From: Collybiopsis luxurians FD-317 M1 | Lineage: Eukaryota > Basidiomycota > Agaricomycetes > Agaricales > Omphalotaceae | DNA: 64,000 nucleotides | NCBI GenBank assembly: GCA_000827265.1 | Contig: KN834774.1 | Coordinates: forward strand, 146,384 to 210,383 | Reading direction: 5' to 3' | Shown: piece after piece, positions 35,628 through 51,288 of the stretch | Layout: the number at the start of each line of letters is the position of its first letter | Numbering within the stretch: the stretch's first letter is position 1 | Program-made: the position numbers and the translations under genes | Notes under the pieces: model-generated | The model's input: the letters and a program-made list of their open reading frames with translations, nothing else | Told to the model about the DNA's origin: nothing | Databases searched by the model: none

Positions 35628-36052
35628 TCAAATGATCATTGTCTTATATGGAAAATTGAAGCTACCTACTGGCATAGTCAAGGTTGTCAAATGGGTAATG
35701 ATGTGTGCAGGTTCAATAATATAAAATATATTTGAAGCAGCAGCACTAACAATCTTTGACTTTAGCTGAGGATATAAAAGATAGGGTGCTTTCTGCTCCT
35801 CCTTAACAGATAATGAAGAATGTTCTTCAACAAAGAAAAAAACTTGTAATCTATCCTGCAATGGTATTTGTAGGATTTTATGAATAAATCCAGTGCAATT
35901 GACATAATTGAAATGGTCATAAAATTGGATTCCCCTATTTCCTGGATGGGAAGAGTAGCAACTGTATACAATTCCATCTATAGTGTACTCCTTTAGTTGC
36001 TTCACAGTAGGTGGAAGGACAAGTGAATGCTCAGGGTGAGGGATATCTGTAT
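35628..36052 (-). pseudogene. Tnp2/CACTA-like transposase, C-terminal part
   Basis: The minus-strand frame begins at the LTR junction with DIPHPEHSLVLPPTVKQLKE and ends at TGA 35628-35630. It continues the reading frame that stops at 48620 on the other side of the inserted retrotransposon. Joining the two across one copy of the TGTAT target duplication keeps the frame (…HQMYT / DIPHP…). Confidence 0.75.
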
Positions 36053-36747
36053 TGTTATGCCCTACGCTATTTTTTCTGCTCTTTCCAACCAGTACACTCA
36101 CCACACGACTCGATAATAGTCTTACCAATCAATTCGGCTCTCCAAATCTGACATGCATTTCGTGAGGCAAACTAACCAGTTGCTCATTCCAAACTTCTAT
36201 TCACAAGACCACATGTCTCCCCGCAGAGTATAAAAGACTTGTACCTACATCTCCCATGATAATGCTGTTATTACCTGAACTATCTTGATCTGTGTTGTTT
36301 CTGTTCTCTTGTTCACTAGTCTATAATATTATTCTGCTTAACACTGAGTCGAGCAAACCCCATTGACACCGAGTCACTGGCATATCCACTTCTCACTTGT
36401 CGAACCAATCAACAAGACTATTCGACTGCTGTAGCCTCTCGAATATTCTGTCTCGTAGGGTAAATGGACACCGAGTCACGAACCTTCTGAGTCAACCCTC
36501 ATTAATACTGTCTTAACGAGTCCTTTCGATATACAATCTCTAGTCACACTGAGCTACTAGAATTGTTATTCGACACTCAAGGATCATTCCTCTATATCAA
36601 ATACTCAAACTGTACAGGACTCGATCACTTGTCGTACGTAGCGACTCCCCATCGCATACTCTGTCTCGGCTGTGGTATAATAAATTACTTTCTACTCACT
36701 GAACCTGCTACAAGCTTCTAACAACAAAGGTAGTAAAGGTCCTAACA
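36053..36747 (+). mobile_element. 5' LTR of the 12.57-kb element
   Basis: 695 bp. It contains TATAAAAG (36229-36236) and, 32 bp after the start of that box, AATGCTGTTATT (36261-36272), the likely start of R. It differs from the 3' LTR at roughly 25-30 sites by eye, mostly CG versus TG/CA, plus a 3-bp length difference. Confidence 0.95.
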
Positions 36748-36748
36748 A

Positions 36749-36760
36749 AATAACAGCATT
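36749..36760 (+). promoter_or_regulatory. Self-complementary primer-binding site
   Basis: AATAACAGCATT, one base after the 5' LTR, is the exact reverse complement of AATGCTGTTATT at 36261-36272 near the predicted transcript start. No TGG-type tRNA 3'-end complement is present here. This is the arrangement of Tf1/sushi elements, whose RNA 5' end is cleaved off to prime minus-strand DNA. Confidence 0.8.
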
Positions 36761-36775
36761 CTCTCCATCACTGAG

Positions 36776-39700
36776 ATGTCTGGGGAATCTGCGAAACATT
36801 TTGTAAGTGAACAAGAAAGACGGCGTCAAGAACAAGAATGCCAAAGAGCAGCGAGAGCTACAAGGTTCCAGAGAAGAGAGGAGCGATGTGGAGCTTCTAC
36901 ACTGGATGACTGCTCAGTTTCATCAGCACCTGCAAGAGGTGCCATACCCTCAAGAACGGGGGAAATTTTGGAACATAATGATAGAGACCCGTTTGACCTG
37001 GAAAATCCTGTCGAACACGGGTCTCCTCATGTTCCAGGACACCTGGTCTCGACTCCATATGTTTTGAGTTGCTCCCAGCGAGGTCAGCCATATCATATGG
37101 CAGCTAGAGCTGACTCGAGGCTAGTCATGAGGCCAACACAAAGTGCCCCAATAACACCCAAAAAAGGAAGGGAACAAGAAACAATTCATTTATCAGAATT
37201 AACTCATTCCCCAGAAGATCCTCGAGGTTTTAGTGTGGGAGTCAGCTCAACACGCCCCTTCCACATGCCAACTCATCCTGAGAACCAGGATTATTATGAA
37301 GATATCGGCATATCTCCAACAACACGATATACATCTATAGGGGCAAGATGCGAGGTCATCTCCCCATTAGAACATATCAGACATCCACTTCCTCTCACAC
37401 CAAGAGAAGAAGAATCTAAATTTGCATCGCAACAATCAGAACGAGAGACGAGTCGGGGGTTGTACTTGTTGGGGCCACTCTCATTAAGGGGCCCATGGTC
37501 TCTGTTCAATTTAAAACAGTCTACTCCAATAGTAGAAAGCAACGCAATACAGGCTCAGGGATTGTTGAGCCCAATCCCCGATATGCTGTATCGACAACTC
37601 ATTTTGCTAATGAATCTCACCCTGTGGGTCAATATCCCAAACAAACAGTGACAGAGCCTGATTTGGGACACTCATTATGGCCAAATCACTTGGGATTCAG
37701 GACTGACGGTCTGACATATCATAGAAGAGAAACACCCAAAACTTTCCATGAGAATAATTGGTTGGAAGGACCGGGTTGGAATGCAAGGGGTTTGGTGAAT
37801 TCCCCAAATACCACCGGACCTGGAATTCCTTTCTTGTCTCAATATTCAGATCCTGGAAACACAGCCCGAGTCGGTGAACAGCAAAACCAATGGGAGACAT
37901 CGGGACCAGGTCAGGTAAAACGGTGGAATATGGCATATGCCCCACCCTCAGGGGAAAGGAACAAATTTGAGAATGAAGGATTTAACTTCGTGAGAAGTTG
38001 AGATGACTGGGATCTCTCATTTTCCAAAGACCAGCTTTGCCCTTCAGCTCTCGAGACTCATCACCCAATGCCCCCACTAGAGAAAAAGGAATTCACCCCC
38101 CTACAAAATGTAAAGGGTAGAGGGAAAGTGGTTAATCCTTTCGCTAAGGAATCGAGTTGCCAGACTTCCGAACCACTGAGAATCACAGAAGTCCCCCCTC
38201 AACAGCCTGCAGTTCAACAAACAGTGCATGTCCCACCACCAGTAGTTGTGGAAACTGTTCCGCAGGCTGGAGGATTCACTCCACCTGTATTTACAGCTGC
38301 TCCTAGGCAATACGTCCATCCGACTGGCAGAAATTTTGACTCGATACCTGCAATTCCACATAGAACACCCAGACAAGTAACGAATGATTATCACCCTATT
38401 GTCTCGATGCGTCAGGAATCTGTGAGAGTTCCAGCTGAACAATATTGGAGATCGGGGACTCAAGAATATAGACCCTACATAGCGGAGCCGATGTATGACT
38501 ACTCAAATTGTGCCAGTACCTACAGAGGGTATGGAGTAGCAGGACCTCCAGGAGGACCCCCGTATGGAGGAGTCACGCAGACGGGAGGAATTAGTGATGG
38601 AAATTCGGAAAGAGAAAGAGGTAGTAGAAATGGCAGTTTTAGAGGGGGATCTGGAGGTGGTGGACCAGGGGGACCGGGGGGACCAGGAGGACCAGGTAGC
38701 CCAGGAGGACCACCCGACAATCCTGACAATTGGGGTTCGAATCACGACGCATATTGGCACCTGGCAAATGGATGGATAGCTGTATGAGGCCCCAGAGGTG
38801 AGAGAGGAGAACCAGGTCCTGCAGGACAAGATGCGAGTCAGATTCCAGAATTCGATCAGTGAAAAGATCAATTAAATAAGGAAGCAAAACTTGATGTCAA
38901 AAAACCTGACCCTTTCGACAGTTCTGATAGGTGGAAATGGGAACCTTTCCTCTCGCAAGTCCGTTGCACTTTCATGGCCAAACCTACTATCTACGAGAAC
39001 AACTCAGATAAAATTGGTTTTGCTGTCTCATATCTGACAGGGGCAGCAGCTACTCACTATGATAATTTGCTGAAACAGGAAAAGGCTGGGATCCCCATCC
39101 CTGCTCTCCATACTTGGATTGATTTTGTCGCAGAATTCACATTGTATTTCGGATTATTCGATCCTGCATGAGACGCACAGGTGAAACTGGCCTGGATCAA
39201 ACAGATGGACAATGAATTGTTTTTGACATTTATTATTTGATTCCAGGAATATGCATTCAAGACAGGATACAATGACACAGCATTAGTAGCAATGCTCCGA
39301 GGGGCAGTAACAAGGAGCCTCAATGTGACAGTAGCGGCTCAAACTCATCCCCCTCAGAATTATCCACAATGGGTACAGCGATTCCAGGAGTTGGACAATT
39401 CAATTTGTGCAACCAATGCAGCTCATTCTCGTGGAGGAAATTCTGGTTTCGGGATGTATAATCCTATGGCCCCATCGAATCCTCAAAACTCTAACCCGCG
39501 ACAAGGATCCAATAATAATAATGCCCAGCAAGCAGGAGGTCAACAAGGTAGGAATCAAGGTAATTGGACCAATCGACAAAGAGGAGCTGCAGCTTGGGAT
39601 AGTAATGTAAATTTGGACAATATTAGTGGTACGGTATATGGACAATCTGAAGACTTTGTGAGCGCCTCGAGTCAGAATGGAAATAGTGGAGAAGGCTTAG

Positions 39701-40047
39701 AAAATCAGGGAGGAAATGACAGAGTCTCAAAAAACCCAGGAGACAAAGAATTCCTATGGGAAATTCGAGCTGCCAGGACCCCTGAGCAAGTCAAAGAGTT
39801 CCATCGACGTTGTAAACTGGGACTCTGTTATAATTGTGGGGGATCAGACCATATTGGTAAAGATTGCAAAAATTGGGAGAATTGGGACCCTCCAAAAAAT
39901 GGAACTTCGAGTATAAATAATCAACAAAGTGACCAGTTGAGGGCTGCAACCTTCACTCTAGAAGGGGACCCATCTAATGATGAGATTTGGAATGTCGAGA
40001 TAGAAAATGACTTGGGAAAAGTGGAGGGGATTCCAGAGACACACTGA
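36776..40047 (+). pseudogene. gag of the 12.57-kb element, with collagen-like stretch and CCHC knuckle
   Basis: It starts MSGESAKHFVSEQERRRQEQ at 36776. A frame change near 37500-37560 links to the frame carrying the rest. A Gly-Pro-rich, collagen-like stretch (about 38540-38830: GGPGGPGGPGGPGSPGG, then GPRGERGEPGPAG) precedes a capsid-like region with FDSSDRWKWEPFLSQVRCTF (about 38915-38975). The knuckle CYNCGGSDHIGKDC (C-x2-C-x4-H-x4-C) is at 39826-39867. In-frame TGA codons at 37999, 38785, 38860, 39169 and 39238 sit in otherwise continuous sequence. The frame moves near 40000 to that of the protease. Confidence 0.85.
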
Positions 40048-43000
40048 GAGCAGCCTGGAATCCAAAAAACCCTGCTCAAGCAGTCTGTCATGGGGCAGTA
40101 ATAGAAAAAACATCCCCAGCTCATCTCTCGTCTCGCTCTAACAACTCATTTCTCATCTCGACACATTTCCCTTTCTCTGATTCCAAAAATCTAAGCTATA
40201 ATACTCTTATTGATTCGGGCGCGACTTGTTCTTTTATCGATAAAAACCTTGCAGAAAAATTCCCAAAGAATATCTCTGATTTAGATACTCCAATTCCACT
40301 TGAATTATTCAATGGTCAACCAACTTCGGCAGGGGATATAACAAAAATCTTTAAAGATACTATCAGCTTCACCGACGGTTTAATTCAAACAGTCGAATTC
40401 CTAATAACCCAACTACACCCAATGGCTCCTATCATGTTAGGTTTACCATGGCTCAAAGAATTCAATCCTGAAATAAATTGGAAGGATTTGACTTTGACAT
40501 TCCAAGGAAGAGAATGAATTTCAGCTTCACTAGTTGATTTGTTCACCGGTACATGGAACTTGAATACTAGCGAGAAGCAGGACCCATCAGTCCCTGACTC
40601 GGAACACAAATCAGCCTATAACAAACAAGAAAATGGGGATGTAGACTTGTCAGTTTTGGAATTCAATGAATGGTTGCTTTATATGAATTGGGCTAATGAT
40701 TACGACAAGGATCTTGAAAAATGGAAAAATAAATACNNNNNNNNNNNNNNNNNNNNNNNNNNNNNNNNNNNNNNNNNNNNNNNNNNNNNNNNNNNNNNNN
40801 NNNNNNNNNNNNNNNNNNNNNNNNNNNNNNNNNNNNNNNNNNNNNNNNNNNNNNNNNNNAAAGCTTGGGCAGAAAGGATTGACAAAAGAAGTTCAAAACT
40901 GCCAGCATACAAGCAGAAACGGAGATGGATATATAAATGAGTCGGAAAATTGCATCAGGAATCCATTCCACAAGGCCTGTCGACAAGGGTATTAAATATC
41001 TCAAAAACCTCAGCACTCCAGCAACAAAGAAAATGTACAAAACAAGGGATGAAGATAGGAAAACCCAAAAAAGTCGAAAGGAGAATGGGTCCAAACCTCC
41101 CAGGCAAGGCAGTAAGTCTCATCAGTGCAGCTGCAATGGACAATATAATATGAGATGGGATGCCTGCCTATTTCCTGCATATCACCACAGTCTCGAATCA
41201 AGTGAATAATGATGATACCACTAATACAGAAAAATCTGAAACTCACAAGTCAATTTGAGGAAATAGGGAAGCTACAGAAAAATTTCCGACAGAAGCAGAG
41301 ACTGGAGAATCTCAAAAAGATGAAGAAGAGATACTCAAACATGTTCCCGAGAAGTATTGAGACTTCTTGGACATATTCTCCCCAGGAGAGGCAAAGGTCT
41401 TACCTCTGCACTGTCCGCACAATTTAAAAATTGAGACAGAAGGGGACTCAGCCCCTCCCTTTGGGAAACTCTATAACATGTCAGAAACAGAGCTAAAAGC
41501 CCTAAAAGACTATATCGATGATATGCTAGAGAAAGGGTTTATTAGAGCCTCCAACTCGCCTGCTGGGGCTCCAGTGCTATTCATAAAAAAGAAGGACAGA
41601 AGCCTAAGGCTTTGTGTTGACTATCAGGCCTTAAATCGAATCACAAGGAAGAATAGGTATCCCTTACCCCTTATAGGCCCACTTGTCGACCAACTACGAA
41701 AGGCAAAATATTTTATGAAACTCGATTTGAGAGCTGGATATAACAATGTCCAAATAGCGGAAGGCCACGAGTGGAAAACAGCATTTCATATGTGATACGG
41801 ATCCTACGAAATGTTGGTCATGCCTTTCAGGTTAACAAATGCCCCTTCGGCTTTCCAATTTTTTATGAACAACATTTTCCATGATTTACTGGATGTATGT
41901 GTGGTTATTTACTTGGACAACATTCTCATTTATTCGGATGACAAAAAAACCCATGAGGAACAAGTCCGAAAGGTACTACAAAGGCTATGAGACAACCACC
42001 TACATGCAAAACTGGAAAAATGCAGTTTCGATACTGACACAGTGGAATATCTGGGGGTAATAATAAATCCCAACAGGGTGTCGATGGATCAGTCCAAAGT
42101 CAAAGCCATAACATCTTGGCCAGTTCCACGGAATATAAAAGAACTGCAGTCATTCTTGGGTTTTGCGAATTTCTATTGCAGATTTATTGACAATTATAGT
42201 GGTATAATGAAAGCCCTAACATCACTACTGCAAAAGGATGCCATTTGGCATTGGGACGAGTCATGTCAAAGGTGTTTCGATTTATTAAAAAATGCCTTTA
42301 CACATGCCCCAGTGCTATGACATTTTGACCCAGAACTTCCAATTATTCTGGAATGTGATGCATTGGATTGGGCAATAGCAGGAATATTGTCTCAGCTGGA
42401 TCCGAAAACTGGAGAAATACATCTGATTGCTTTTCATACTAGGTCCATGATACCAGCGGAAATAAATTACAATATTTACGACAAGGAGCTACTGGCTATC
42501 GTGGAATGTTTTAAAGTTTGGAGAGCCTCTTGTGATGGTTTGAGATTCCAAATCCAAGTTTATTCTGATCACAATAACCTGCAGTGGTTTACAACTACCA
42601 AACAGCTGTCAGTGAGACAAGCGAGGTGGTCAGAGGCCTTATCAGGATTCGACTTCCGAATCAACTATAGACCCAGAACTTTGGGAGCAAAACCAGATGC
42701 TTTGACGAGATGAGCAGATGTATACCCAAAGAAAGGAATCGATAGGGACTCTGCCAGAGCAGGAAGAGAGCAGATATTGATTCCTCCAGAATGACTCAAT
42801 GCAGCATTGCTTTTGAATGAGGATTTGTTATTAGAATGGATTCGAAAGGTGGAACAAGACAAATTCATGCGAGACACAGTAAAGCAGATTCGAGAAGGAT
42901 TAACAATGTGGTATTTGAAAATGGGTTACTTAAATGACAAGGTCAGATACATGTCCCTAATGACACAGACCTTCAATGAGACGTACTATCTGCCTATCAC

Positions 43001-44340
43001 GATCACGCACTTAGAGGACATCCGGGCAAGAAGAAAACAAAAAAGATACTCAATCAGTTGTTCTTTTGGAAAGGAAGCAGCAAGGACATACATCACTACA
43101 TACAAAGCTGCCATACTTGTATAAGATCCAAGGCTAGAAGAACTCTCCAATATGGGAATCTGAAACCTCTACCCATTGGGCAAAGACCCTGGAGTTCAAT
43201 TTCAATGGACCATATAGTACAACTCCCAAAAGCAGGAAAGGAACAATTCGATGCAATCCTAGTAGTAGTAGATCAGCTCATGAAACAAGCCATCTATATT
43301 CCCTGTCACACAACAGACACTGCAAAAGAATTTGCAAGACTATTCCTCAAAAATGTATTCTCGAAACATGGGCTACCAGTGGATATCATCTTGGATCAAG
43401 GAAGCTTGTTCATCTCCCAGTTTTGGAAGGAATTGTGTAAGATACTTGGTATCAAGTCTCGTCTCTCGATGGCATATCACCCTCAAACAGATGGGCAGAC
43501 AGAGAGAACTAATCAAAGCCTCGAAGGATACCTAAGAATCTATATGTCTTATGACCAAGATGACTGGGATGCCTTATTACCTATCACAGAATTCATATAC
43601 AACAACATGCCCCATTCAACTACAGGATTAACACCCTACTTTGTGAATAAAGGTTACCATCCAAAACTTTCAATCAACCTTTCAAAGGTGAACAACTTGG
43701 AAGCAAACCAGTATGCTACCGAGTTAAAAGAAATACACAAATATTTAAAACAACGCATATACGAAGCAAACGAGGCAGCAGTGAATCAGTTCAATCGCCA
43801 CTGTGCTGGAAATCCTGATTGGAAAAAGGGCAACCAAGTCTGGTTGGACATGGGTAACATCCGAACAAGAAGGCCTACCAAAAAATTGGATCACAAGTGG
43901 GCAGGACCCTATACGATACTCGATAAAATAGGATCTCATGCCTATCGACTCAAGTTACCAGGGGACCTACAACAAATCCATAATGTATTCCATGTTGATA
44001 GACTAAAACCCCATCATCCAGATCCTTTCCAGCAAGTCGTATCGCCACCTCCACCAATCTTCATTAAAGGAGAACCAGAATATGAAGTCGAGTCAATAAA
44101 GACAGTTGTCCAATGGGAGAAATGGACAGAGGAATCCAGTACTTGATCAAATGGAAAGGGTATGATGAGGAGTCCTGGATTCCCTGGAAAGGTATGGTAG
44201 GAAGTATTGATTTGATTCGCAAGTGGGAGAAAGCACATCCAAGGAAATGAAAGTTACCTCTCGAGCTCCTCAAAGAACTTGAAAGCCTAGCCCTGCAAGA
44301 CAAGGAGGAAAGGGAGTTGAGACAAGCAGCTGAAGCTGTC
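40048..44340 (+). pseudogene. pol of the 12.57-kb element: protease, RT, RNase H, integrase, chromodomain
   Basis: Protease: LIDSGATCSFID near 40206-40241 with DSG at 40212. A 123-N gap lies at 40737-40859. [22 protein letters not shown] (about 41457) to the catalytic box, here YLDN (41910-41921) instead of YLDD. RNase H: about 42345-42713. Integrase after a frame change near 42900: zinc-binding H-H-C-C with YHDHALRGHPG (about 43000) and CHTC; catalytic D at 43208 and 43394 (LDQGS where DRGS is usual) and E at 43523 in YHPQTDGQTERTNQSLEGYL. GPY(F/T)I-type C-terminus, then a chromodomain (YEVESIKT...YLIKWKGYDEESW, 44080-44240) split by a frameshift near 44115. About ten TGA stops, no TAA or TAG seen. 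Confidence 0.88.
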
Positions 44341-44552
44341 ATTTAATTGGGAGAAATGACTCTCAAAATTGAAACCTCAACCTTAAAGGGGGGGTAAAAG
44401 CAATACTTCAAGTTTTCATTTCCAATTTCTCGACACATTTCTCTTTACTATTATCAAAAATCATAACAAATTCACGATTGTATTTCAGGGAAATAAAGTA
44501 TACAGTGGGCATAGATTGGGATATACAGGTACAGAAGGCTGGAATGGAAGGA

Positions 44553-45496
44553 CTAGTCAAAGGACGACTTGCTTAATTTGTCATGTTCAGCTCGAATGTT
44601 GAAAGGGATTCCAAATACTTCCTCCAGTTCCTGGGCATATAAATCCTCAACACACTCGATCTCCATCTGCTCCTGTATATCCTGCAAGGACAGAGCCATA
44701 TGGAGGCTGGGATCTGCCAATTCATCTTCATTCTTCTCGACCAATGAATAGGTCAAAGGATCCTCCCCGGTGCAAACAAAATAGGCATTAGGGTGACCAG
44801 ATGAAAAGATCACTACAGGAGATGTATTGCGAGTCTCAACAAGAGTACTGGGAAGGGAAGTGGTATTGAGAGAAGGAACAAAATTGGATAGGGAATTGGG
44901 AGTGGAGTCACTCTTCATCTCAAAAGGAAAGGATTCAGATGAAGGACCACCCCATATGTCCATAGGGGCAACGGTGCTAGTAGTTACTGGTTCCAAGGGC
45001 AGATCTCCAATATTCAAGAGACAACAAAGCTCCTCATAAACGCCGTGAAATTGAGATAATTCAACTCCACGCCCCTGGGCCAAAGCTTCAGCAGCCAGTT
45101 GGAGGTTGTGGGACTCGACAAGAGAGTCTCGCAACTCCTTAATAACCCGATCCTGCTCCTTAATGGTCACCTCAGCAGTTTTGTGAAGATATCTGGCTTC
45201 CTGGGCAACTCGCTAGGAAGGATCAGTGAGCCATGGAAACCCTACAACAAGTCAAAAAGACATACAGACAACTCGAGCATCTTATCTTCAAATTCCTGCG
45301 TGGTTCGACTCAAGAGTTCTCGCAACTCATGGATCTCATTGGATTGACCCTTGACAACCCTCTGCAGTTGCCCAAACTCACAACGAGCTTGGTTCACAAG
45401 GATGTCCTGATCAGATACAACTTGAGAAATACTCTCAGCAGCATCAGCGAGATGATCTAGGAACAAAGCAGAGTCAAAGGGAGAAGGGGAAGCCAT
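44553..45496 (-). CDS. Antisense gene 2 of the retrotransposon: acidic, probable coiled-coil protein
   Basis: Two exons, 45496-45266 and 45212-44553, with a 53-nt GTATGT...CCTAG intron, encode 296 residues without an internal stop. Residues from about 30 to 130 are rich in heptad-like Leu/Glu/Gln (VKGQSNEIHELRELLSRTTQ; TIKEQDRVIKELRDSLVESH), suggesting a coiled coil. The middle is Ser/Thr/Pro-rich and the C-terminus acidic (EDLYAQELEEVFGIPFN). It runs opposite to gag-pol, entirely within the element, downstream of the chromodomain. No known domain recognised. Unlike gag-pol it has kept its reading frame. Confidence 0.7.
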
Positions 45497-45798
45497 GACA
45501 AAGGAGGATCTCAAAATGAGGATAGAAAAATAGTCTCGAAAAAGTATCCTTTTATTGAGACAAAGATGCCCGATATGAACCTAATAAGGGACGAAACATG
45601 CAGCCACATGCATACGCCTCATGGAAATTTTTGAATACTTCGATTCTCAGGAGATATCTTATTTCGAACCCGGGGCAACTTCTTATTTCACACAAAGGAG
45701 GGGCCCAAAAAAGAAAAAGATTTAATTTAGGAAGGGAAATACAAAAAAATTTGGAATAAGGATCTATCAATATACAAAAAATCTATGAGCCAAAAGTC

Positions 45799-47730
45799 CT
45801 AGGAACTACTGGAAGAAGGCTTTGTGGGCGAGGCAGCAGCAAACTGCCCTCGGACCGACTCAAAAAGCTGTCAAAGTTGGCCGAGTTCATCATCTTGCGA
45901 CTTCAACTCTTCTGCTGCAACTCGACAGGCCTCCTCACTTGCAGCCAACTTCTTCTTTAGCTCCTCTATCTTGCCATCCTGAGCTTCCAATGCTCCCCTT
46001 AATCGCTGAACCTCCTGTAAGATATCCTATCAAAAAACTAAACCAGTCGAAAGAGAAGAAAGGAACTTACCGATGACTGAACGTCACCTTTGAAATGCCT
46101 TACGAAGGATTTCAGATGAGCTAATTCCTTGTCCTTCTCCTCCAACTGACTTTCCTGCAAGGACACTTGCTCCTTCAAATGGAGATTCTCGGTCTCCAGA
46201 CAATCTGACTTCTGCGATAAAGCTTGATACTCCCGATACGCTCAGAGGAGTTCATCCTGTTGAGAATCGACGATGTTTGCAGAAGTCATATTCATAACTG
46301 TTAGCGACTTGATGAATTGAAGCAGGGATTTGCTTGAGAATGGTGCAGGTGGCTTGGAAGGGGAGTGCTGCTAAAGGAACATGAAAAATGGTAAACAACT
46401 AGATAAATCCACGGAAGTGTGGGATTACGCACCAATTGTTCTTCAAGATCTGCGAATGCTCCTTGAATCATTCCATCCACCAGAGCCCATAAATCCTGCT
46501 CAAGCATCTTCTTCCCGGGACCAGCAAACAACGATGCCATCCTTGTAACCACACATTCTACGGCGGTCTGTATCACTGAAGAGGTTAATTAGTACAGACG
46601 TGCAAAAAGAAAAAGAGTTTAAACTGAGACTTACTTTTGTCCCAAGTCAGAGAAGACCCATTGGAAGGGACTTGCTTGATGAGAGGTTCAAAAAACCACA
46701 TTTTCAAGCCAGAAACCTTGCAATAGGACCGGTTATTGCTAGCCTTCCAGACGGGGGCAGAAGGTGTTGGAACAGGGACAGGGGGAGGTGGAACATCTTT
46801 GGGATAATCCAAAGTCATGGTGTCCAGCTCTTCTGGAGTGCCCATCTCCATGTCAACATCTGCGGTGTTGCAAATGACCTCCTTCCCCTTACGATACAAA
46901 TTCAGAACAACCTGTTTGCAACTTGACTCCCCTAAATGTATCCCCTCCTGTCGAAGGAGCTGACTCTTTCGAAAGGCATTCGAAGAGACAACTAGGAAGA
47001 TAATGAGTACTATAACAACCCTAGACTCATTGAACTCACCAGCTTTCCTTTTGCCTTCTGAAACCCTCGGCCTGTCCGACAATAAACCTAACTCCTCAGG
47101 ATGATTACAGTAGTAAGGGATTTTTCGCAACCCCATTGTTAAGGCATTCCATTCCTTGCCCCGAATAGCAAACAGCCCTCAACTTGACACAATACGATAC
47201 GCGACGATGAGGGGGAGCTTAGTGAGGATGTGGAATTGGAGGAGACGAAAGATACTCTTGAAGGAACAAAACTTCTTGCTAGAAGGATAGTTCGCTTCGC
47301 AAGTACTACACGATAAAGAGTCAGGGTGAAGGGAGCAGGAGGAGCAAAGATTATGCAACTCACAATATTCGCAAGATGGGTAGTTCCCGAAAATATTCCT
47401 CCACTCTTCGACATCTACCCTATCCAAAACCTCGGGACTTGAATTGGCGAGATAAGCATCCTCGTAAATAGGCTGGAGGCCGGTAGGAAGGGAAGGGGGA
47501 ACGCGGTCTATAATTGAAATTGAGGGATAGCTGAGACGTGTACTACACTCAAAGGCCACATGTCACATCTTCTTGGCCGCTGGGGGAGCAGAGGGAAGAG
47601 TGTTGGAAAAGGGAACCAGCGACACCAATTGGAGAGTCTGTGGAATCTTGATGATGAGTCGGGGCTTTGACCCTCCTGATTTACTAGACAACATGATGGG
47701 CTGGTTGGTAGACAATTGAGATGAAGACAT
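45799..47730 (-). pseudogene. Antisense gene 1 of the retrotransposon: Cys-rich plus coiled-coil protein, four TGA stops
   Basis: Five exons fit consistently: 47730-47040, 46991-46635, 46575-46433, 46367-46071 and 46026-45799, with short GT-AG introns of 44-65 nt and matching phases (571 codons plus stop). Start MSSSQLSTNQPIMLSSKSGG. A cysteine cluster CEYCELHNLCSSC...CSTC near 47370-47290 could bind zinc. A proline-rich patch (PPPPVPVPTPSAP) lies in exon 2, and exons 4-5 are strongly coiled-coil (LKEQVSLQESQLEEKDKELA; LRGALEAQDGKIEELKKKLA). Internal TGAs at 47565-47563, 47181-47179, 46244-46242 and 45873-45871 each fit a lost CGA. It begins about 200 bp inside the 3' LTR, so that LTR could supply an antisense promoter. 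Family unknown. Confidence 0.65.
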
Positions 47731-47916
47731 AGTGGTCAGGGGGAAAGAAGAAATTGACTCAAAAACCCAGAGTGCCAGCTTTATAAGGGCTTCGGACTTA
47801 GAGTTTTCAATTGAAATTCAGCAGCCGGCACATCAAAAACTTAATCTGACAGCATGGCAGTCACAACACCATGTCGCATCAAAAGCTATGCATCCTTTCG
47901 AGGGCTCAAGGCCCTT

Positions 47917-47927
47917 GGGGGGGGTAA
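47917..47927 (+). promoter_or_regulatory. Polypurine tract
   Basis: G8 followed by TAA immediately before the 3' LTR start TGTTATG at 47928, the expected plus-strand primer position. Confidence 0.8.
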
Positions 47928-48619
47928 TGTTATGCCCTACACTATTTTTCCTGCTCTTTCCAACCAGTACACTCACCACATGACTCGATAATAGTCTTAC
48001 CAATCAATTCGGCTCTCCAAATCCGACACATGTTTCACGAGGCAAACTAACCAGTTGCTCATTCCAAACTTCTATTCACAAGACCACATGTCTCCCCGCA
48101 GAGTATAAAAGCCTTGTACCTACATCTCCCATGATAATGCTGTTATTACCTGAACTATCTTGATCTGTGTTGTTTCTGTTCTCTTGTTCACTAGTCTATA
48201 ATATTATTCTGCTTAACACCGAGTTGAGCAAACCCCATTGACACCGAGTCACTGGCATATCCACTTCTCACTTGTCGAACCGATCAACAAGACTATTCGA
48301 CTGCCGTAGCCTCTCAAATATTCTGTCTCGTAGGGTAAACGGACACTGAGTCACGAACCTTCTGAGTCAACCCTTGTTAATACCGTCTTAACGAGTCCTT
48401 TCAATATACAATCTCTAGTTGCACCGAGCTAGAATTGTTATTCGACACTTGAGGATCATTCCTCTATATCAAATACTCAAACTGTACAGGACTCGATCAC
48501 TTGTCGTATGTAGCGACTCCCCATCGTGTACTCTGTCTCGGCTGTGGTATAATAAATTACTTTCTACTCACTGAACCTGCTACAAGCTTCTAACAACAAA
48601 GGTAGTAAAGGTCCTAACA
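47928..48619 (+). mobile_element. 3' LTR of the 12.57-kb element
   Basis: 692 bp, TGTTATGCCC...GTCCTAACA, collinear with the 5' LTR and keeping TATAAAAG and AATGCTGTTATT. A direct TGTAT duplication follows at 48620. Confidence 0.95.
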
Positions 48620-51288
48620 TGTATACATCTGATGGGGTCTTCCAGTCTGATTTAAATACTGTAGCAGCACAACATATTCTTGCTCACTAAGCCTTGGGGA
48701 TTTTGATAGGAACTGACCAAACTCTAAAGTAGATAAAACACCAGCTGACTGATTTTCCTGCTTATTATTTGGAATAATAACAGAATGCAGCTCCTGTACA
48801 GAGTCCTCGCCAGTATCATTGTCATGCCACAAAGCTTTCAACCTGAGTTGGCGGCACATTTGCTTCACCATGGTATAGGCCATGTCATCTATAAGTGTTA
48901 TAAGTCAATTTACAAATCTAAAATGACACATCAAGATCAAACTCACAGACACAATGATTGGTCTTAACCTTCTGCAACATGCCATTCAGGTGCTCTCCTG
49001 GAAATTCACTAAGACCTGCCAAAGGACTCCAGTGCTTTAATAACATTTCATTGTGCATTGCAAAATGATGATTTGGAAGGTCATGGCATTCAGGGAAAAG
49101 CTACTGTATAGATATCTGGTAGGCAATATAAAATTGGGTGAACTGCTCTGCTTCAAAATTGGAAGTTTCAAATGAACAGATAATATTTGTAGCCACTGTC
49201 AAATTGACATAGCTTTCTAGCAATCTGCATTCTCTTTCATTACCATTCTGCCAAAGCTTGGGCATAACCAAGGGAAATATCATAGAAAATAAAACTAGAT
49301 AATCATTTGCCTTAAGTTTGCCATGCTTTGACATTCCTAAATTTATTGGAGGACAATCAACCGAGGTAGTCAACCACACCTCATGAATACAATCACAAAT
49401 GTAGGACAGCTCATTTTCAGAAAACTTAAAACACTCTTCTGGTCATCAAACAGAGGAATATAGTCTGGATCAAGATCTTCATCTTCATCATCTGCATTAT
49501 CAATTTCCATTAGAAGAGCTCCGGGACTTGTAGAAGGAGTTGGTTGTGGAGTAGGTGTACTCTGCTCCGATGATAATGTTGCAGACTGAAATTGAGATGA
49601 TGCATATTCTTCAGCTTCTTCATGCAATTCCTCAAGCTCACTCTCTGATTCTGAGAGATCTCTTTCAGTGTAACTTTCATTTGCTATGAGTTCTTTATAT
49701 GCTTCATCCAATGCTTTAGCTTTTTCTGTGTCACGGCCAATGCCCCATCATGTTCTCAGCTGGTGTTCAAGAACTCCTTCAAGCCAGTTATGCATAAATC
49801 CAAGTATAAGATTCCTGACTGGATCACAATATGGTAAATGATTTAAAGGTGTCCACCATACACCAGTTGCTGTAGCAAACTTTTTTCTTTTGTCCTTTGT
49901 ATTTAAAGACAGCCACTCCTGTGCTTGTTGCTGTACCTGAACACTATTATGAATGGTCCAAGAATTGGGATTCACAGAATCCAAGTTCTCATACAAACAG
50001 TCACAATATGAGCAGAAAAGACCAGCACTTGGAGCTAGGAATCCTCCAACTTTGCTGATAGCCTGTAAATCTGCAATAACAGCCATAATTCTGCTCTGAA
50101 TGGAAACTCCTTCAGGATGACGATATGTGACAATTATCTTTCATGGGTGTTGAAATTCCAAAATTTTATTAACCAAGGGGCTCAGAATATTTGAGATAGT
50201 AACAGGATCAGGAGTGCTTGGAGGAGGTATCAGCCCAACAATAAAAATATTTTCTGGCAAGTAGCGGACTTCTGGAGGCAAATTCAAGCAATAAAGAACA
50301 ATTGCTCCACATGAAACTACTTTTCCTGGAAAACTTGAACTCAGGTTTCTTTACAAAATACAATAAGTGATGCATACCAGCAATTCTGTTTGAATGGGGA
50401 TTAAACCAATCAATGTATAATCCAAACACTAGGTTATACCTTGCTTTAAGATAATCCTGTAAATCTTTCCAAGCTGGGCTTTCTTGGAAGTCATGCATGG
50501 TTGCTCCAAGAGGGGCTGGACTAGGTAGAAATGCAGACTCTAAATAATCCTCAAATACCCTTCAATTCAGAAAAAAGGAAAGCCAAGCCTCAAAATCTTG
50601 GGTACTATAAAGAGATTATGGGACCCATTTGAATGCTTTCCCAAATCTTTGAAGATGCCAAAGGTTAGTATTAAATGGGCATGCCTGAGATGTTTCCTTC
50701 CAGTCACAATGGGTAGGACAGGGAGCAGTATTGAACTGTTTATACCAGACTGGACAACAAACTGTGTGAACAATTGTTGGGTTGATTCCTTGCACATGGT
50801 TGAAAGCGGTGTGAATATCATGAGGAATCTGTAAACTTGAAAACTGTAAGTCAATACCAACAGTACTGCATATTGTGCTAGACAGAATTGCAAAAATTCT
50901 GGATAATATAAAATGCAAGCTCCGCAGGACTGTATTTGCAGTGGCTTGACTAATACCAGCATTGAGGTGAAGCCACACAATTAGTGTGCAGCACAATGTA
51001 GTAATGAGACTAGATGGAATGGTTATATCTACAATATAGAATTAATTTAGTATCTCTGGATTCAGCCACAAATAATATACCTTTGGGTGGAGGATTCTTG
51101 GGCAAGGATGCACTAGGTGTGCTTGTGCTTCTTCCTTCCCGAGCTGACCTGGGAACATGTTTATCAAGCCTAGCATCTCTTCGCTCATGCTGACTCCTTT
51201 TTGAATAACTGACACTACATCCAAGTATCTGAGCTCCATTTACCTCCACCCATTCCTTTGAGCAACATTTACAAGTGCAGATTGGCAT
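48620..51288 (-). pseudogene. Tnp2/CACTA-like transposase, N-terminal and central parts
   Basis: It starts MPICTCKCCSKEWVEVNGAQ (51288), a Cys-rich N-terminus usual in basidiomycete Tnp2-type proteins. A core block has LVFGLYIDWFNPHSNRIAG (about 50440-50385), comparable to the Transposase_21 pattern (D-x-FNP). Then come APSAGLFCSYCDCLYENLDS (about 50030-49970), CDPVRNLILGFMHNWLEGVL (about 49825-49765), an acidic linker (49711-49440), and SKHGKLKANDYLVLF (about 49330). A TGA interrupts QLRT-TGA-WGIG near 49747, and other stops and frame changes occur. The frame is cut at 48620 by the retrotransposon and resumes at 36052. Confidence 0.8.

Follow-up and report, generated by a model that had tools for sequence, protein, structure and literature searches.

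Antisense genes have been reported in gypsy elements since the 1990s, and their function is not known, according to the available part of one account (PMC7264820). The plant elements Grande, RIRE2, Retand, and PvRetro13 carry additional antisense open reading frames (ORFs) whose products are suspected to be nuclear or DNA-binding regulators, and the antisense gene of Grande is transcribed from its own promoter, as excerpts of two papers describe (PMC7264820, PMC11963269). Among fungal gypsy elements, Boty of Botrytis cinerea has an antisense gene that lies between pol and the 3′ long terminal repeat (LTR) (PMC7264820, in its available part); this gene is named brtn in the title of a reference (PMC8365987, likewise available in part). 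Here, we analyzed a Ty3/gypsy element of the mushroom Collybiopsis luxurians FD-317 M1. It spans positions 36,053 to 48,619 of a 64,000-nucleotide stretch of contig KN834774.1 (positions 146,384 to 210,383, forward strand), referred to as the window, and is flanked by TGTAT target-site duplications. As in Boty, antisense coding sequence occupies the interval from pol to the 3′ LTR. However, a second gene, introns, and hypervariability go unmentioned in the available descriptions of Boty.

An earlier, sequence-only reading of this DNA had regarded a pair of spliced antisense genes in a fungal chromovirus as not known to be described. This was overstated, as the antisense gene of Boty is a precedent in the available text of both sources (PMC7264820, PMC8365987). 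What appears to be new is a hypervariable, recombining antisense gene; antisense gypsy genes themselves are already known from Grande, RIRE2, Retand, and Boty. We found no hypervariable, recombining, or multi-intron antisense gene of a mushroom element in the literature searched, from which subscription papers were mostly absent. The element described here carries two antisense genes, which we call A and B, with coding constraint and conserved introns. Divergence is focused in gene A, which is a mosaic, and a similar pattern is present in two copies of a second family. The sequence-only reading overlooked the hypervariability and mosaicism of gene A on an otherwise uniform element.

Genes A and B lie on the minus strand between pol and the 3′ LTR, where the sequence-only reading had placed two intron-bearing models; we confirmed both, and their GT-AG junctions are kept with few exceptions in the 42 rows of an alignment of the window copy (L001) with 41 other copies. 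The five exons proposed for gene A (47,730 to 45,799) also stand, but the proposed 571 codons become 568 with the preferred acceptor. We set the start of exon 5 at 46014 rather than 46026 because the acceptor AG at 46016-46015 is kept in 42/42 rows; 27/42 rows have TAG at the end of the originally proposed acceptor. Gene A of the window contains four in-frame TGA codons and is therefore a decayed copy. Gene B (45,496 to 44,553; two exons, 296 codons) is open in the window copy, with 0 stops, as the earlier reading had it. The features of the two genes are as follows.

47780..47785, minus strand: TATAAA, some 50 nt before the start codon of gene A; in 37/38 rows with sequence there
47040..47730, minus strand: gene A exon 1 (copy alignment); holds the cysteine cluster
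46992..47039, minus strand: gene A intron 1; GT and AG in 41/41 rows with sequence
46635..46991, minus strand: gene A exon 2 (copy alignment)
46576..46634, minus strand: gene A intron 2; GT in 42/42 rows, AG in 41/42
46433..46575, minus strand: gene A exon 3 (copy alignment)
46371..46432, minus strand: gene A intron 3; GT and AG in 42/42 rows
46071..46370, minus strand: gene A exon 4 (copy alignment); predicted helical
46015..46070, minus strand: gene A intron 4; GT and AG in 42/42 rows
45799..46014, minus strand: gene A exon 5, stop codon included; start agrees with aligned C. luxurians gene models
45549..45555, minus strand: ATAAAAG, a TATA-like site before gene B; 42/42 rows have ATAAAA
45266..45496, minus strand: gene B exon 1 (copy alignment); predicted long helix, low-confidence model
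45213..45265, minus strand: gene B intron (intron 5); GT in 41/42 rows, AG in 42/42
44553..45212, minus strand: gene B exon 2; 19 D+E and 4 K+R in the last 86 residues

The TATA-like sites before both genes are putative promoters; whereas Grande has its own antisense promoter, the C. luxurians element offers these candidate sites only. A CTNAY branch-like motif occurs in introns 1 to 5 in 41/41, 42/42, 20/42, 11/42, and 42/42 rows, respectively, and the introns of gene A range from 47 to 75 nt in length with unchanged splice sites. The word intron is absent from the Retand paper; the C. luxurians genes have four introns (A) and one (B), and one of them is hypervariable.

Other copies were sought in the 64.26-Mb assembly (200 contigs, with the window on contig C26). 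A DNA search with the antisense region returned 42 rows at 40 places including the window (the best 40 of 92 candidates), hence at least 39 other places. A search with gene B only added nine further places (the best 40 of 77 candidates), hence at least 48 other places. Copy comparisons leave out L026, a split match with extra sequence, and the alignment does not include a split copy (C78:114579) and five of the nine additional gene B places (C70, C47, C74, C37, and C114). Rows were dropped from subanalyses for truncation, frame breaks, or missing flanks. Rates of insertions and deletions (indels) were calculated for 32 of 41 copies, 30-codon windows of the ratio of nonsynonymous to synonymous differences (pN/pS) for 28 of 42 rows, and non-CpG distances and correlations for 28 rows.

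The sequence-only reading had proposed looking for the frames and introns in other copies of the element and measuring dN/dS across them. Both frames and introns are conserved across the 42 aligned rows. Frame-breaking indels occur at 0.17 per kb in the coding sequence of gene A, compared with 27.2 in its introns, and at 0.07 per kb in that of gene B, compared with 2.84 in its intron and 9.66 in the spacer between the two genes. Relative to the window copy, the synonymous divergence (dS) of gene A reaches 1.46 with nonsynonymous divergence (dN) of about 0.2, and their ratio (omega) is 0.15 to 0.25 in 28 copies (L015 to L043). In a frame test with eight far copies, with exons A3, A5, and B1 outside the test, median pN/pS was lowest in the predicted antisense frame for exons A1 (0.33), A2 (0.37), and A4 (0.24); the next-lowest values were those of sense frames (0.49, 0.45, and 0.33). 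For gene B, whose divergence is shallow (dS of 0.08 to 0.18), the predicted frame gave 0.42 and one sense frame 0.39, so the antisense frame was not separated. The case for gene B as a probable coding sequence comes from the indel test and from a full-length, indel-free frame in most copies, yet most copies also have stops.

Introns 2 to 5 are present in 42/42 rows and intron 1 in 41/42, the exception (L036) being truncated there; a template of sense genomic RNA would give this result. No row shows precise intron loss; therefore, the antisense introns pass through transposition, as the earlier reading had supposed. It had also considered regulation by antisense RNA alone, which is not supported because the codon-level and indel constraints show selected proteins. 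Judged by comparison of the copies' sequences, genes A and B are real antisense genes whose coding sequence is under purifying selection. In-frame stops fall at codons reading CGA in some other copies in 208 of 227 cases. Across 44553-47730 of all copies, they cluster at codons containing CpG, which points to decay linked to methylation.

Divergence is distributed very unevenly along the element. Identity to the window at each of the 39 other listed places is 92 to 95% in the leader (matches covering 36750-37584), 91 to 95% in gag, 90 to 95% in the reverse transcriptase (RT), 91 to 94% in the integrase (INT), and 93 to 96% in gene B, with the interval 37,582-38,890 slightly more variable (87 to 95%). 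When 37 copies were compared with the window in 200-base bins, identity dropped sharply over gene A only: INT, gene B, and the LTR gave 86 to 100%, and gene A gave 64 to 96%. In 25 of these 37 copies (L014 to L039), third codon positions of gene A are 53 to 75% identical, and those of gene B in the same copies are 89 to 94% identical; in L002 to L012, third positions of gene A are 89 to 93% identical. Mean non-CpG distances give the same profile, with a maximum over the parts of gene A (0.167 to 0.193) and a fall on both sides, to 0.091 in the spacer, 0.076 in the upstream flank, 0.055 in the LTR, 0.047 in INT, and 0.044 in gene B.

Gene A is also a mosaic. When segments were typed with a 17% cut (L011, L012, L035, and L036 left out), each gene A segment fell into three to nine types, and a single type was seen in the upstream flank, in the spacer, and in gene B. 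The six types of the downstream segment are merely an artifact of filler distance for five rows without sequence. Gene A types are reassorted between copies, and whole combinations are common to two to six copies; assembly chimeras alone are therefore no explanation. A permutation test of recombination on 37 rows, which also left out L009, found no permutation in 1,000 that matched the 526 gene A sites, with r2 dropping from 0.153 to 0.029 with distance.

The most constrained part of protein A overlaps a cysteine cluster, C-x2-C-x8-C-x8-C-x2-C-x10-C, at codons 120 to 155 (47373-47266). Cys 120, 123, 132, 144, and 155, His 126, and Trp 110 are kept in 41/41 rows, and Cys 141 is kept in 40/41; codons 121 to 180 hold the windows with the lowest pN/pS, 0.22 and 0.10. 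The C-terminal part is predicted to be helical with moderate confidence, within a poor AlphaFold model. Protein A is a predicted zinc-binding, coiled-coil protein. Fungal Zn2Cys6 transcription factors have six spaced cysteines with a coiled coil further on. Protein A is like them in its six cysteines and coiled coil, but its loops are longer than in that pattern and it has no Pfam match to them. For protein B, a low-confidence model predicts a long helix at residues 9 to 122, followed by an acid-rich C-terminal part. A PDB profile search gave one match, at an E value of 0.87, and the TRP28 domain of Retand (PF04195) was not among the matches of the antisense genes at E values up to 1.

A comparable arrangement is found in other gypsy elements of the same genome. 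The pattern of a polypurine tract with an LTR start occurs at 18 places, some belonging to the family of the window element, and we read six of them (L044 to L049). Antisense open frames occur in L045, L046, and L047, where 2 to 3 kb separate the last pol match from the tract, and in L044, which has no integrase match and about 4 kb beyond its RNase H match. L048 and L049 lack the arrangement: in the gypsy element L048, a long sense frame runs without interruption, pol and the tract are not separated by a long gap, and an antisense cassette is missing, and L049 gave no pol match. L046 and L047 belong to a second family. They are 92 to 96% identical in pol, 63 to 69% in the central part of the antisense region, and 79 to 86% on both sides of that part, with the first 576 bases unaligned. 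A 131-codon antisense block shared by these two copies has codon-position identities of 65/79/37% and a pN/pS of 0.33, the lowest of the six frames (best sense frame, 0.40). In a frame test of L044 against L050, the antisense frame of the first gene gave 0.37 versus 0.46 for the best sense frame, and that of the second gene gave 0.41 versus 0.39 for a sense frame. Hidden Markov models of A and B detected nothing better than an E value of 0.04 in L044 and L045. The antisense frames of L044 to L047 appear coiled-coil-like, and those of L044 and L045 include acidic-tailed ones. One frame of L045 (2214-2972, minus strand) has distant relatives at nine places (24 to 40% identity); one of these adjoins a homolog of an L044 antisense gene on C78, and another lies about 6.5 kb beyond the window end on C26.

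The remaining features of the window element are as follows.

36053..36747, plus strand: 5′ LTR (LTR pair comparison); TGTAT duplication at 36048-36052
39292..40047, plus strand: gag piece with CCHC zinc knuckle (Pfam PF00098, E 6.4e-5)
41478..41795, plus strand: RT piece (Pfam PF00078, E 6e-10); stops break the pol frame in the window copy
43205..44146, plus strand: integrase with Tf2-1-like SH3 domain (PF24626, E 1.3e-19; PF00665, E 3.1e-7)
44140..44250, plus strand: chromodomain-like piece (YLIKWKGYDEESW...), a motif read by eye with no Pfam score; integrase frame not kept in the window copy
44385..44397, plus strand: internal polypurine-tract-like sequence AAAGGGGGGGTAA, at the cassette border on the pol side
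47917..47927, plus strand: terminal polypurine tract GGGGGGGGTAA, read beside the 3′ LTR
47928..48619, plus strand: 3′ LTR (LTR pair comparison); TGTAT duplication at 48620-48624

The element has the LTRs, target-site duplication, and polypurine tract expected of a Ty3/gypsy chromovirus, and RT (41478-41795) precedes integrase (43205-44146), the order found in Ty3/gypsy. In an alignment of 699 columns, the two LTRs are 95.1% identical, and 16 of the 31 mismatches between them are CpG type. Several stops interrupt pol in the window copy, and a run of N, which may be an assembly gap, occupies 40737-40859 in the pol region. The integrase core (PF00665) scored 31.0 bits, slightly under the cutoff of 32.6; the SH3 domain (PF24626) was well above its cutoff. 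We take the stretch between RT and integrase to be RNase H, and the piece at 44140..44250 presumably belongs to the chromodomain family. Near 37583, other copies are seemingly about 1.2 kb longer between the leader and the gag region, as read from match positions on C8, and the window copy may have lost this length. The antisense cassette is enclosed by the tracts at 44385-44397 and 47917-47927, and the internal one, between pol and gene B, is found at 32 of 35 loci with a terminal tract (window counted). It resembles terminal tracts elsewhere in the C. luxurians genome. The internal tract may be an ancestral element end, with the cassette added afterwards.

We tentatively favor, at somewhat less than even confidence, an explanation in which two antisense genes are kept by purifying selection and the recombining versions of gene A encode a version-specific regulator of the element, from which rare versions would escape. 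Antisense transcription would start at the TATA-like sites and be followed by splicing. The introns would go through reverse transcription unspliced because they are antisense to the genomic RNA. A zinc-binding, coiled-coil protein A may pair through coiled coils with the coiled-coil, acidic protein B, and protein A would regulate the expression or replication of its own element. Selection would favor rare gene A versions, which would evade control by common ones. Copies of the element could thereby hold one another in check or evade such control. Taken together, the deep versions, the divergence peak that decays into the flanks, purifying selection, and recombination resemble long-term diversity selection on one gene. 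In copy number control of Ty1 in Saccharomyces, p22 is produced from gag, its effect is tied to the gag version, and gag is exchanged by recombination, according to the available part of one report (PMC7055915). Gene A would be like this in encoding an element factor with a version-dependent effect, a property that for gene A is predicted only. Unlike p22, which is gag derived, it is a separate antisense gene, and gag is uniform in the C. luxurians element.

Several results weigh against this explanation. Both genes are known from their sequence, and their transcription and splicing are predictions. No 30-codon window of gene A in the 28 rows has a pN/pS above 0.42, so diversifying amino acid selection was not seen. 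Omega in the 11 nearest copies (L002 to L012) is 0.34 to 0.48 for gene A and 0.30 to 0.65 for gene B, near decay; postinsertion decay weighs more in these copies. Gene B sites recombine as well (0 of 1,000 permutations, 56 sites). A cis partner of gene A was sought by covariation with parts of the LTR, gene B, and INT, and none stood out; correlations with gene A parts mostly decay with distance (LTR, 0.25 to 0.40; gene B, 0.17 to 0.30; INT, 0.20 to 0.28). Mean AlphaFold confidence was 45 for A and 52 for B, making both models too poor for a fold search, and nothing in the structure or domain searches marked either protein as a regulator. Pfam gave weak matches, mostly to coiled-coil families, and five gene A proteins had no zinc-cluster family at E values up to 1. 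The pattern in the second family is based on two copies.

Some of these observations would suit other causes equally well. The host could drive the diversity if protein A, or double-stranded RNA formed from sense and antisense transcripts, were a target of host defense that new versions evade. Diversity focused in one gene with deep versions suits such an arms race equally, transcripts of the two strands would overlap at the position of the genes, and the CpG-type decay (208/227 stops at codons reading CGA elsewhere) suggests host action on the element. However, escape through RNA should diversify gene B in the same region too, and its mean distance is 0.044 versus 0.167 to 0.193 for gene A; likewise, no gene A window has a pN/pS above 0.42. 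We consider host-driven escape unlikely, although worth serious attention. The same can be said of passive mosaicism, in which recombination among several old lineages of the element gave rise to one successful backbone, and ancient gene A sequences linger without selection for diversity. Strong recombination and the fall of segment correlations with distance are what it would produce, but it leaves unexplained why gene A keeps old variants and the leader, gag, RT, INT, gene B, and LTR do not, and why a second family is similar.

Two further possibilities concern the origin of the genes. Host genes captured and carried by the element, an idea of the sequence-only reading, might be suspected because A and B, having TATA-like sites and short introns, resemble fungal genes of the usual kind. 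Yet protein searches with A and B gave no named homolog outside C. luxurians among the matches listed, although distant relatives may be missed; the named homologs are all C. luxurians models, and seven other matches are unnamed metagenome proteins. Furthermore, a count by eye placed a gene B model at the adjacent locus number for 33 of 64 listed gene A models, and element flanks were examined at part of the gene A loci. Capture therefore seems very improbable. That the antisense open frames and their splice-like signals arose by chance is scarcely credible: the undecided frame test of gene B (0.42 vs 0.39) would fit, but conservation of indel pattern, codon positions, splice sites, and cysteines across copies speaks against it.

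A bolder form of the version-specific regulator explanation is that gene A is a retrotransposon immunity determinant, with many old versions kept in the genome because rarity is an advantage, and each version holding back elements that share it. The gypsy families of this mushroom would then fall into immunity groups, as temperate phages do, by means of antisense genes, with two families doing so in parallel; we regard this as slightly more doubtful than either host escape or passive mosaicism. In phage immunity regions, the backbone is conserved and the regulator region is diverse and mosaic. Phages are a different kind of element, and the likeness to gene A would be purely functional. Versions of gene A look far older than the surrounding element, which indicates that selection acts on gene A unlike on gag and pol. 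The function of gene A is therefore likely version specific, in competition between elements or in conflict with the host.
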